IMG/VR virus record: IMGVR_UViG_3300046000_004657
Coordinates: 1-35,196 of that record
Reading direction: 5' to 3' (one strand)
Source of the DNA: a virus
Length of the DNA: 35,196 nt
The notes under the pieces were generated by a model, which had not been told where the DNA came from, did not search any database, and worked only from the letters and a program-made list of their open reading frames with translations. The translations under genes were made by a program, and so were the position numbers. The number at the start of each line of letters is the position of its first letter. Within the stretch, counting starts at the first letter, position 1. Shown one piece after another: positions 3,154 to 23,296 of the stretch.

Positions 3154-4709
3154 ATCTCATTCAAATCCAAGAGCACTTAAAAGATCTGCCAACACCGGCG
3201 ATCATGGCTTACGCTAATGGGCAGAACCCGCAGGTTCCCCCGTACATGGCTCTTGGCGAAATGAACCGCCGAAAGTCTATGGAGCAACGTGCAGCTCAAG
3301 CACCTGACTCTTCTGTTAAAGAGAAGCTTGAGAGCGAGCTCAACCAGCAGATTGCTTTACCCGGCGTTGGTCAGGGTATGAACATGAGGATGAATCCTGC
3401 AGGGATGCCCCGTCCTATGCCTGCCGTACAACCCCAGATGGCTCCTCAGATGCGGCCTATGCAAGTTCAACCGGCAGCCCGGCCTACACCTCCCCAGCAA
3501 ATGTCCCAGCCCGGGTCTATCCCAGCGGGAGCTCCGGGAATGGCGGGAGGTGGACTAGCTAATCTGCCTATCAGCAATCGTATGTTTAACTACGCGCCCG
3601 GCGGTATTGTGGCGTTTGCCGGCCCTGATGATCAATTGGTTTTACCTCCCGGTGAATCTGTATCGGGCACATACACTGATGAACAGAATCCAAACAAATT
3701 ACCAGTAGGTTTGGCCAATAAAATTCTGACTGATCGTTTACAAGGTAATGTTAATTTAGCAGAACCAGTTAGCAGGGATCAAGTACGCGCTGAAGTTTTG
3801 GCCAAGAACCCACAGCTTGCCGCCATCATTGATAAATTACCGGGCGACACACTAACTAAGTTAGCCGCCCAGCTTGAACAGCAGAATCTAGCCCAGCGTT
3901 CTAAGTTCCAAGAGGGCGAAGGCCGGCAAGGTCTTGCCGCTTTGTCACAGGCTTTGATTGCCGCTGGTGAAGCTACCCGTGGCCAGAAGGGCATGGGAGG
4001 CATTGGAGCCGCTTTTGGTGGCTTTGGTAAGACTTATAACGCCGCTACTGCCGCACAAGCAGAACGCGCCGCTAAACAGCAAGCCTTAGAACGCGCCCAG
4101 ACCATCGAGACAATGAAGCTCCAAGCGGATATTGAGCAGATGCAACGTGCGTTTGCTGAAGGCCGTGTTGATGAAGCCATGAAGCTCAAAGAGCAGGTCA
4201 ATGCCCGTACAGCCAAGATTGAAGAGATCAAAGGTACAGCGGCTAAAGATGTTCTTACCCAGTCTATGACTCAACAGCAACGTGATGAGCAAGTTCGCCA
4301 CAATAAAGCGGTTGAAGATTATCAGAGACAACAACAGGCGATTGCGGCTGAACGTGCCAAGTACGAGCGTGAGAACCGTCCATCTAAAGACGAGAAGACA
4401 ATGCTAGCGGTGATGGGTAGACTGAACGCTGATCCTCAATACAAAGCATTGTTGAAACGTCAGACCGAATTTAATCCTGCCGATCCTGAGTTTGATGCTA
4501 TTCAAAATGTGTTGGATTCAATTAGGAATGCGGCGTTTACTGATGCAAAATTAACAGCACCAACGCCACGGGAGCGTTTAAAATCTATTGTAAAGCCTGA
4601 AGATACACGCAGCTTTTATGAGAAAATTGCACCGGAGTTTATGGGTGGTAAAACGGCTTCAGCAAGCGGAGCCCCGCAATTGCCACCGGGCTTTGTCCTC
4701 GATAAATAA
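3150..4709 (+). CDS. Probable internal virion protein with coiled coil
   Basis: 519 aa, starting within the previous stop (ATGA). The N-terminus has MAYANGQNPQVPPYMALGE, followed by a Met/Pro/Gln-rich disordered stretch (about residues 75-135). A short NYAPGGIVAFA segment follows, then a long Ala/Gln/Glu/Lys-rich helical region (about 230-420) typical of coiled coils. No enzyme motif is visible. Position between the structural genes and the giant polyvalent gene suggests a core or ejected protein; this is inference. Confidence 0.7.
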   Translation: MNLIQIQEHLKDLPTPAIMAYANGQNPQVPPYMALGEMNRRKSMEQRAAQAPDSSVKEKLESELNQQIALPGVGQGMNMRMNPAGMPRPMPAVQPQMAPQMRPMQVQPAARPTPPQQMSQPGSIPAGAPGMAGGGLANLPISNRMFNYAPGGIVAFAGPDDQLVLPPGESVSGTYTDEQNPNKLPVGLANKILTDRLQGNVNLAEPVSRDQVRAEVLAKNPQLAAIIDKLPGDTLTKLAAQLEQQNLAQRSKFQEGEGRQGLAALSQALIAAGEATRGQKGMGGIGAAFGGFGKTYNAATAAQAERAAKQQALERAQTIETMKLQADIEQMQRAFAEGRVDEAMKLKEQVNARTAKIEEIKGTAAKDVLTQSMTQQQRDEQVRHNKAVEDYQRQQQAIAAERAKYERENRPSKDEKTMLAVMGRLNADPQYKALLKRQTEFNPADPEFDAIQNVLDSIRNAAFTDAKLTAPTPRERLKSIVKPEDTRSFYEKIAPEFMGGKTASASGAPQLPPGFVLDK

Positions 4710-21047: not shown

Positions 21048-21500
21048 ATGTCAGATTTAATTGTTGGAATAGATCCCGGAGCTTCTGGTGCAATTGTTGT
21101 GCTGCAGGATGGTCAGCCTATTGGGTGGGCACCAATGCCCATCATGCAAGTTGGTAGCCATAAGCGTGTGAATGCAAGTATGTTGGCTGACATCTTGCCA
21201 AAGGAATTAAAGCGCGCGTATGTTGAGCAAGTTGGAGCAATGCCAGGTCAAGGGACGGCCAGTATGTTTTCGTTTGGCCATTCTTGTGGCGTTGTGTTTG
21301 GGGTGCTGGGTGCTCTACAGATACCTGTGGTGATGGTTACGCCTCAGTCATGGAAGAAACGCGCTGGCATTATCGGTCAGGACAAGGATGCTTCAAGGTC
21401 AAAGGCCATCCAGATGTGGCCAAAGTGGCGCGAGCTGGACAAGAAGGGAGCCGGCCAAGCGTATGCAGATGCGGCATTCATTGCACTTTACGGAGATTGA
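21048..21500 (+). CDS. RuvC-like Holliday junction resolvase
   Basis: 150 aa. RNase H fold with acidic residues at IVGIDPG (Asp9), AYVEQVG (Glu60) and AYADAAFIA (Asp141), the order seen in RuvC and phage RuvC-like resolvases. VTPQSWKK before the last motif also fits. It probably resolves branched DNA before packaging. It is a single-gene transcript between a divergent promoter region and a strong terminator at 21557-21586. No clear Shine-Dalgarno beyond AAAGAAA is seen. Confidence 0.85.
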   Translation: MSDLIVGIDPGASGAIVVLQDGQPIGWAPMPIMQVGSHKRVNASMLADILPKELKRAYVEQVGAMPGQGTASMFSFGHSCGVVFGVLGALQIPVVMVTPQSWKKRAGIIGQDKDASRSKAIQMWPKWRELDKKGAGQAYADAAFIALYGD

Positions 21501-21556
21501 TGTAGAATAAATTCCGGTGACTGCAGTTGCCATTCTCCTTTGTTGGATTGTCCTTA

Positions 21557-21586
21557 CCCCCGAACTAAACACTCGGGGGTTTTTTT
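21557..21586 (+). terminator. Rho-independent terminator after RuvC-like gene
   Basis: CCCCCGA (21557-21563) pairs perfectly with TCGGGGG (21573-21579) across a 9-nt loop, followed by seven T (21580-21586). Confidence 0.9.
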
Positions 21587-21607
21587 CATATTAGCAGTGA
21601 TAATATG
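21587..21607. promoter_or_regulatory. Operator-like dyad, copy 1
   Basis: CATATTAGCA, one G, then TGATAATATG. The half-sites match those of the perfect palindrome at 33230-33251, with one base less spacing. It lies directly after the terminator and 26 bp before the -35 box of the next promoter, so it could control that promoter. Confidence 0.55.
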
Positions 21608-21633: not shown

Positions 21634-21663
21634 TTGACACGGGTTGAAATAATCTGATATAAA
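21634..21663 (+). promoter_or_regulatory. Strong sigma-70 promoter upstream of structured RNA
   Basis: TTGACA (21634-21639), 18-nt spacer, TATAAA (21658-21663): a perfect -35 and 5 of 6 for the -10. There is no coding frame downstream; a start near 21670 would make an RNA that begins 20-25 nt before the long hairpin. Confidence 0.75.
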
Positions 21664-21669
21664 CGAGGC

Positions 21670-21790
21670 GTTGCTGTCGGAGGCAATGGATTAGGCTGTT
21701 TAGATGTGCGTTCCGCTTTACTTAATGCTTTCTGTGGGGAGAGTCATTAAGCAAAGCTCCGACCGGGCGCACTTCTAAGCAGCCTTTTTT
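21670..21790 (+). ncRNA. Candidate small noncoding RNA with long hairpin and U-tract
   Basis: Expected from the promoter at 21634-21663. A hairpin spans 21693-21785: AGGCTG/CAGCCT, a T-G wobble, TTAGA/TCTAA, a T-T mismatch, GTGCG/CGCAC, an internal loop, GCTTT/AAAGC, an A-C mismatch, CTTAATG/CATTAAG, then a small apical stem. Six T (21785-21790) follow the closing stem, so the same structure works as a terminator. A long interrupted hairpin recalls 6S RNA in shape, but it is shorter and no sequence match is claimed. No ORF is present. The 5' end is estimated. Confidence 0.6.
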
Positions 21791-21796
21791 GTTTTT

Positions 21797-21892
21797 GAGA
21801 CTGGGATTGTGTTGCGGGTTAGCGCCGCAAGCTCCTAAAGTGGACGAAATGTAGTTTTGAAAAACACTGCTTCATGTGAACGTCCCAGTCTC
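21797..21892 (+). ncRNA. Second structured segment closed by a 10-bp stem
   Basis: GAGACTGGGA (21797-21806) pairs perfectly with TCCCAGTCTC (21883-21892). Inside, TTGCGG (21812-21817) pairs with CCGCAA (21825-21830), and another weak stem forms around the AGTTTT/AAAAC segment, giving a multibranch shape. No promoter is seen directly upstream, so it may be read-through RNA. Strand is assumed from flanking genes; function unknown. Confidence 0.45.
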
Positions 21893-22194
21893 TCCTCCTA
21901 CGCAGCCGTCAGAGCGCGTTAGCTAATGGCCTGTATGGGCTGAACTCAAGAAACACAGAACCTCGGTGTGACCCGCACCTCTTAGTAGAGAAATCGAAAA
22001 GAATAAACAGCGATGTCGAAAGGCACATACCCCATAGTTGCACCTGAAAGTGCAGGGAGGCGGATTGGCATTCCGTTAGTCAACGTAAAAACTTGACAAT
22101 GCTCGCTGATAAAGAGCCTTGACCCGTGTACTTCCCCCTCTTTGGGGGAGGGAGGGTCAACGGGTAAGAGGGACTAGGCTTGGTGACATAACAG
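21893..22194 (+). other. Gene-free stretch rich in stem-loops
   Basis: No plausible ORF. It contains small inverted repeats: TGCAC/GTGCA around 22040, CGGA/TCCG around 22065, GTCAA/TTGAC across 22080-22097, GCTC/GAGC around 22101-22116. A larger one has TTGACCC (22119-22125) with GGGTCAA (22154-22160), enclosing CTTCCCCC (22131-22138) with GGGGGAGG (22144-22151). The last has no T-run. It could be part of one long structured RNA, or an origin or regulatory site. Confidence 0.45.
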
Positions 22195-22224
22195 TTGACT
22201 CATCGGTAATTCATGAGTTATATT
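22195..22224 (+). promoter_or_regulatory. Sigma-70 promoter of the replication operon
   Basis: TTGACT (22195-22200), 18-nt spacer, TATATT (22219-22224), both 5 of 6. A start near 22231 puts the GGAGGT ribosome site of the first gene almost at the 5' end of the mRNA. Confidence 0.65.
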
Positions 22225-22410: not shown

Positions 22411-22685
22411 AAGCATTCCCAACACCAGCATTCAGCATCAACGATGAAGCGCGTGTCACAGCTGTAGGCGGTGAAGGCGGCATGGATCTGCGGGATTACT
22501 TCGCGGCCAAGGCTATGCCAATCTGTTACCAGTATTGGATAAATGATTTTTACCATCCAGACTGTCCAGATGCAGAGGATAGAAATGCAGAGGGTAGAGA
22601 TGACTTTGGTGGCAATACGATGAATTTGATTGCTGAATATGCTTACGCCTTGGCAGACGCCATGATGAAAGCGAGGGAAGCATGA
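22407..22685 (+). CDS. Conserved phage hypothetical protein ([10 protein letters not shown] type)
   Basis: 92 aa. [14 protein letters not shown] and [14 protein letters not shown] are hallmarks of a widespread phage family of unknown function. The protein at 17471-17680 shares the same two ends. ATGA coupling on both sides places it in the replication operon. Confidence 0.7.
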
Positions 22686-23296
22686 CTGATGAAGTTAATC
22701 CCTATCTGGTCAAGGTATCAATTCGGAATAACTTGATTATCAAAGCAATCCACAAGGCCGGATACAGAAACGTGAGCCAGTTTTGTGAGCAGAACGGTAT
22801 GGGCAAGACGCAATTAACATCGTTAATTTCCTTGAAGACGCCGCCTTTGACGCAAGATGGCGAGTTTCGGGATTCTGCCAAAGCCCTGATGGAGCACTTG
22901 TGTGCGCTGCCAACAGACTTGTGGACAACAGAGCAGCTCACCATGGAACTCAGGCGCAACACCAGCACCAAAGAGGTCGATCTAAATGCCATGGTGGCCG
23001 CCCTTGGGATGAACACAGAAGAGGCCTTACACCTTATTGAGGGGTCATCACCAGATAAGGAATTGGAAAACAGAGAGGCTGTTGAAGTTGTTAACGAAAT
23101 GCTAGAAACGCTGACCCCCAAAGAGGCGAAAGTTTTACGAATGCGTTTTGGAATTGGATGTAATGAACACACTCTTGAGGAGGCTGGCCAAGTTCTTGCC
23201 GTAACAAAAGAGCGCATCCGGCAGATTGAGGCCAAGGCCATGAGAAAGATGCAACACCCATCAAGAATGGTAGAACTATGGAACGTAAAACAATGA
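22682..23296 (+). CDS. HTH / sigma-70 region 4 fusion regulator
   Basis: 204 aa. The N-terminal part (about 12-95) has an XRE-like HTH ([19 protein letters not shown], then [13 protein letters not shown]). Residues about 136-198 match sigma-70 region 4: [44 protein letters not shown]. Regions 2 and 3 are absent, so it cannot melt promoters alone. In known systems such proteins bind DNA or the polymerase flap and redirect transcription. I infer a phage transcription switch, probably early-to-late. Starts within the previous stop (ATGA). Confidence 0.8.

Follow-up and report, generated by a model that had tools for sequence, protein, structure and literature searches.

A predicted pseudoknotted non-coding RNA of phages with its own promoter and terminator

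The phage record IMGVR_UViG_3300046000_004657, analysed over its 35,196 nucleotides (nt; the window), carries at positions 21634–21790 what appears, from its sequence and from that of its relatives, to be a gene for a non-coding RNA of about 120 nt, structured at both ends and here called RNA-A. The gene is complete within this span and can be read from the sequence as a promoter, a 5′ hairpin (P1), a long interrupted hairpin and a tract of six U (Table 1). The promoter, noticed as near-perfect in an earlier sequence-only reading of this DNA, matches the sigma-70 consensus at 11 of 12 positions and, as also proposed there, does not lead to a gene: a gap of 740 nt without a plausible gene extends from the Holliday-junction resolvase gene (21048–21500, PHROG match) to a small open reading frame (ORF) at 22213. 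The interrupted hairpin, put by that reading at roughly 93 nt with a GC stem and six U, is 91 nt long (21694–21784) and is closed by GGCUG/CAGCC directly before the U tract. Two features had been overlooked, namely P1 and a pseudoknot of seven base pairs between the P1 loop and a bulge in the 3′ arm of the long hairpin. Because the spacing from the −10 box to P1 is standard, P1 would lie at the first transcribed base and, with the terminator stem and U tract at the other end, both ends of the transcript would be structured. The folding energy of the 128 nt from 21668 is −58.3 kcal/mol, compared with −36.6 ± 3.5 kcal/mol for shuffled sequences (z −6.3), and none of 200 dinucleotide shuffles equalled it. 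We regard this anatomy, a promoter, P1, pseudoknot and terminator forming a conserved RNA on the plus strand, as close to certain.

Table 1. Features of RNA-A and of the sequence behind it (window coordinates).
Feature	Position	Strand	Details and basis
Sigma-70 promoter	21634–21663	+	TTGACA 21634–21639, 18-nt spacer, TATAAA 21658–21663; read directly
P1, 5′ hairpin, 18 nt, from about +1	21670–21687	+	21670–21674 paired with 21683–21687; 99% of cells paired in 79 members
Pseudoknot 5′ strand, GUCGGAG	21676–21682	+	In the 8-nt P1 loop; covariation, 54 of 55 in the pseudoknot-blind set
P2 5′ strand (terminator stem)	21694–21710	+	One internal mismatch in the window; fold and alignments
P2b 5′ strand and P3 inner hairpin	21711–21756	+	P2b 21711–21715; P3 21716–21756, long in the window, short in mini forms
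Pseudoknot 3′ strand, CUCCGAC	21757–21763	+	In the 7-nt bulge, complementary to the P1 loop; covariation
P2b and P2 3′ strands	21764–21784	+	Fold and alignments
U6 tract of intrinsic terminator	21785–21790	+	T-rich tail in all 89 members examined
RNA-B, second small structured RNA behind the terminator	21798–21893	+	Outer stem, hairpin with GGGUUAGCGCC, hairpin CACUGCUUCAUGUG
RNA-D, structured RNA of about 270 nt	21905–22172	+	Long-range closing helix, GNRA-type loops; 51 IMG/VR stretches
Next promoter	22195–22224	+	TTGACT, 18 nt, TATATT; ahead of the following genes; pattern scan

The pseudoknot is evident from the way in which loop and bulge change together amongst relatives, where the pair seen in the window is replaced by GUAGUGA/UCACUAC, GUAGGAA/UUCCUAC, GUAGCAA/UUGCUAC and others. 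The rows of our alignment A1 were mostly picked with a pseudoknot filter, so that its counts are biased for this helix, and a pseudoknot-blind set was therefore made up of elements retrieved with the P2 consensus pattern alone (n = 55). Loop and bulge are perfectly complementary over 7 nt in 54 of these, with 16 different loop sequences, compared with none of 2640 controls in which loops and bulges were swapped; the sole exception, L189, is complementary at 5 of 7 positions. In 79 members, many of them already known copies, aligned to a covariance model that was built from P1, P2 and P3 with the pseudoknot left out, 97.2% of the pseudoknot cells are paired, against 70.6 ± 1.3% after shuffling and 20–49% when slid, and the covariation of 0.662 (0.150 shuffled) was reached in 0 of 500 shuffles, with 152 cells doubly changed. 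P3 is 94.2% paired in the model-aligned members with double changes in 11 of 12 pairs, and over the whole structure 97.4% of cells are paired against 83.4% when shuffled, with changes on both sides in 29 of 43 pairs. Compensatory changes in the stems, which the earlier reading had suggested looking for, are thus present in all four helices. Many of the contigs are close relatives and this relatedness inflates the pair counts, though the margins are very large.

To define the extent of the family, about 240 IMG/VR loci were gathered through the resolvase and through DNA patterns for RNA-A and the neighbouring RNAs, and the covariance model recognises RNA-A in about 100 of them. Some 90 matches in phage contigs have E < 1e-10, and the window itself scores 104 bits (E 1.7e-28) on the plus strand and 22 bits on the minus strand; the E-values are rough, having been obtained after a short calibration. 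The long forms, of about 116–127 nt, differ from mini forms of 90–103 nt in P3. Divergent types with the same layout score 23–37 bits (L004, L005, L012, L015, L050, L121, L138 and L161), and by reading, the slot in L054, L165 and L180 is filled by other types, in which promoter, hairpin, pseudoknot and terminator again follow one another in this order; a generic scan for pseudoknotted terminators was too noisy to be used alone (49 background hits). Beyond IMG/VR, RNA-A is carried by three phage records from the Manatee Spring metagenome (L045, L250 and L251). A search by DNA similarity returned no cultured phage and only two Manatee Spring metagenome records, and Stenotrophomonas, Pseudomonas and epsilon15 phages gave no credible match in their resolvase regions, nor did an Acidovorax phage in its helicase region, but there was one in MW202426. 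A scan of 84,980 prokaryote genomes (one per species) with the consensus pattern produced three hits, which we judge to be chance because none has the element around it, and for the same reason the family seems to be restricted to phages. Prophage copies were not found and host assignment failed; on our reading of the collection, the contigs come mostly from freshwater-type metagenomes. No part of the window matches Rfam 15 at the gathering score, nor do the locus or six relatives at E values up to 2, and this includes the covariance models of GOLLD, ROOL, other known structured RNA families and small ribozymes. That RNA-A represents a new phage RNA family is, on this comparative evidence, well supported.

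The promoter and tail are conserved together with the fold. A score of at least 9 of 12 is reached by 79% of 89 distinct upstream regions but by only 3.5% of shuffles, and in 61 of the 70 regions at or above this score the −10 box ends 6–7 nt before P1, so that promoters are kept at a fixed distance despite differing upstream sequences. All 89 tails examined have at least five T in 10 nt with the GC-rich P2 ahead. These observations bear on whether the conserved region might be a DNA-level element, such as a replication origin, cruciform or recombination site. It does lie close to replication and recombination genes, but the G–U pairs occur on one strand, the model score is higher on the plus strand, the fixed-distance promoter and the U tract are on that same strand and a pseudoknot would be meaningless in duplex DNA, so that a role as DNA is scarcely credible.

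At the sequence level the only unpaired positions that are at least 90% identical are a single A before P2 and the U tail; a conserved unpaired seed was sought in the alignment and none was seen beyond these. Since the shape is conserved without conserved unpaired letters, recognition of the fold is favoured and a fixed antisense seed disfavoured. A trans-acting antisense small RNA (sRNA) of the Hfq or ProQ type, pairing with host or phage messenger RNAs (mRNAs), would likewise be small, with its own promoter and an intrinsic terminator with a U tail, and the loop sequence of RNA-A varies as targets might. A precedent is RydC, a pseudoknotted enterobacterial sRNA that works by seed pairing, the conserved seed in its pseudoknot region pairing with cfa mRNA (PMC8383071). 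RNA-A resembles RydC in being a small RNA with a pseudoknot, but it lacks the conserved unpaired seed, and its knot is formed between the loop of one hairpin and a bulge in another, the terminator hairpin. As, in addition, the loop is always sequestered by RNA-A's own bulge and the longest exact complement to the rest of the phage is 10 nt, compared with 10–13 nt for shuffled RNA-A, an antisense role seems improbable.

The sequence-only reading had suggested a small regulatory RNA, possibly acting on host RNA polymerase like 6S RNA. That RNA-A is a small phage RNA, non-coding and served by a promoter of its own, is upheld by the anatomy and the comparative evidence, whereas the likeness to 6S is not. 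Like 6S RNA (SsrS), RNA-A is small, non-coding and made up largely of one long interrupted hairpin, and its own promoter and a nearby phage gene whose product has a sigma-70 region 4 domain would also suit an RNA that ties up the host RNA polymerase as a mimic of an open promoter. However, there is no conserved open bubble, as the bulge is sequestered in the pseudoknot and the only other conserved interruption is a 2 × 2 mismatch. The inner stem is dispensable, natural versions of 90–103 nt having lost most of it, and RNA-A, at about 120 or 90 nt, is pseudoknotted and ends in its own intrinsic terminator. Homology to 6S was rejected, no Rfam 6S match being found in the window, the locus or six relatives, and a 6S-like action by analogy is very doubtful. 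The gene just mentioned (22682–23296, near the RNA island) encodes a 204-residue protein in which only sigma-70 region 4 is recognised (Pfam E 4e-16), with an unrelated N-terminal half; it is possibly a phage transcription factor.

Further structured RNAs lie behind the terminator. The exact pattern of RNA-B occurs in 113 IMG/VR stretches, and in alignment A3 24 columns are invariant, with the motifs GGGUUAGCGCC and CACUGCUUNAUGUG inside a freely varying closing stem. Copies are found elsewhere (L046:9855–9947, L095:4746–4834, L049:3735–3818 and many more), in tandem within islands, exactly behind sigma-70 promoters at mRNA 5′ ends, and between genes; RNA-B is not in Rfam. RNA-C, which in most cases immediately precedes a copy of RNA-B, is a conserved helix, ACACGCAUGGGGAUUG...CAGUCCCCAGCCGUGUU, around variable inserts (L003:4557–4590, L013:4828–4900, L007:4675–4740 and L017:5016–5085). 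RNA-D has 47 consensus pairs, 20 with compensatory changes, and the case for it rests on this covariation because minimum free energy z-scores for the D slot are weak. Across phages the slot is filled by many different large RNAs, which fall into 12 BLAST clusters.

An RNA-A-type element precedes every copy of RNA-D for which 420 nt of upstream sequence is available. A script counted 34 such cases, among them L001, itself a copy of the window; another four, flagged by it as having none, were resolved by reading, L179 as a member absent from the script's list and L002, L054 and L180 as other types. No promoter was seen between the RNA-A terminator and RNA-D, which would therefore have to be reached by read-through, and RNA-A would be the first unit of an RNA-only island or operon. 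Because this coupling to RNA-D is obligatory, the terminator may matter also as a gate, and the main rival to a shape-acting RNA is that RNA-A is a transcription gate, an attenuator or antiterminator in the leader of RNA-D, in which pseudoknot formation or binding before the terminator stem closes sets the flow of polymerase into B and D. It agrees with this that a promoter and a pseudoknotted terminator RNA of some type are found ahead of each such RNA-D, that in loci like L191 RNA-D begins about 20 nt past the U tract with no room for a promoter, and that in 73 of 74 cases at least 225 nt separate RNA-A from the first ORF behind it that has a ribosome-binding site. On the other hand no competing pairing capable of breaking up the terminator can be seen, the pseudoknot being compatible with the terminator stem, and the U tract and P2 are preserved as in a plain terminator. 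We consider a gate a possibility to be taken seriously, though a rather less probable one than action through the fold.

The best explanation overall, held with even confidence, would be that RNA-A is an early, stable phage non-coding RNA acting through its fold. Host sigma-70 RNA polymerase would start at about 21670, giving a transcript that opens with P1; P2 and P3 would form next, the P1 loop would capture the 7-nt bulge beside P3, and transcription would stop at the U tract. The blocked ends of the RNA might give it a long life, and it would be made early in infection. It would act through its folded shape by binding a host or phage protein rather than by antisense pairing, while read-through of a leaky terminator would supply the structured RNAs B and D. 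A shape-acting function, taken singly, is tentative if quite plausible; we would rank a stable RNA of this kind first and a gate second, with 6S-like or antisense action low. Several points weigh against it. RNA-D would receive no polymerase past a terminator of perfect efficiency, so that leakage or regulation is needed, which would also fit a gate. The free variation of the pseudoknot sequence might reflect target-specific pairing that shifts with the host. Stability and early timing are deduced solely from the anatomy and the neighbouring genes, and the transcript, its partner and its phenotype are all putative. A more speculative and unlikely proposal is that RNA-A, with its promoter, 5′ cap hairpin, pseudoknot and terminator, is the universal head of an exchangeable system of phage RNA cassettes. 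One of many different large structured RNAs would follow the head and be gated or accompanied by it, and such cassettes would be swapped amongst phages as a purely RNA-based device for host takeover or counter-defence.

Comparison with other phage RNAs gives partial likenesses. GOLLD and ROOL are large ornate RNAs of 600–800 nt (PMC12286853) that are similarly phage-encoded, pseudoknotted, without an assigned function and often near other phage RNA genes, but RNA-A is far shorter at 120 nt and without an Rfam match. RNA anti-CRISPRs, which mimic CRISPR repeats (PMC10651486), and ToxIN antitoxin mimics, which imitate a repeated RNA antitoxin (PMC3475682), are also small phage RNAs and act by molecular mimicry; RNA-A differs in being a single 120-nt unit, CRISPR-repeat mimics being set apart here by description. 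The tandem short-pseudoknot repeats of type III (ToxI-like) toxin–antitoxin systems were not seen, the window having one copy of RNA-A. A further case is a non-coding RNA of about 100 nt found in phage PhiKZ by Grad-seq (PMC8545117), likened by description as a small intergenic phage RNA, but from another phage group.

Few phage non-coding RNAs have been characterised. RNA-A adds a family present in about 100 phage contigs, with an unusual loop–bulge pseudoknot within a terminator hairpin and linked to other structured RNAs nearby that are likewise undescribed, and it offers exact, short constructs that can be synthesised for transcription, probing and pull-down work. The locus argues that some phages give about 0.6 kb of an early region to RNA alone.

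In the window the locus stands between left-going recombination genes (exonuclease and Erf annealing protein) and right-going genes for the resolvase, a ParB-like protein, helicase and primase, a layout of the early region that resembles lambda-like phages. Gene calls around the RNA island are mechanical. A terminator-like hairpin of the resolvase gene is found near 21556–21587. The promoter pattern scan required a final T in the −10 box, and hence the RNA-A promoter, with TATAAA, is absent from its list. In L045 (MW202484.1), at 3890–4271, an annotated hypothetical protein (3912–4271) runs across RNA-A into the beginning of the RNA behind it and is probably a spurious gene call. Directly upstream of RNA-A in L163 are genes for tRNA-His and tRNA-Pro (4498–4663, minus strand), which were seen in none of the other relatives scanned. 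Elsewhere in the window, at about 1190–1570, a phage protein contains a segment judged by eye to be Hint- or intein-like (CPSPEMLILLSNGEQ...HTYICEGVLSHN).
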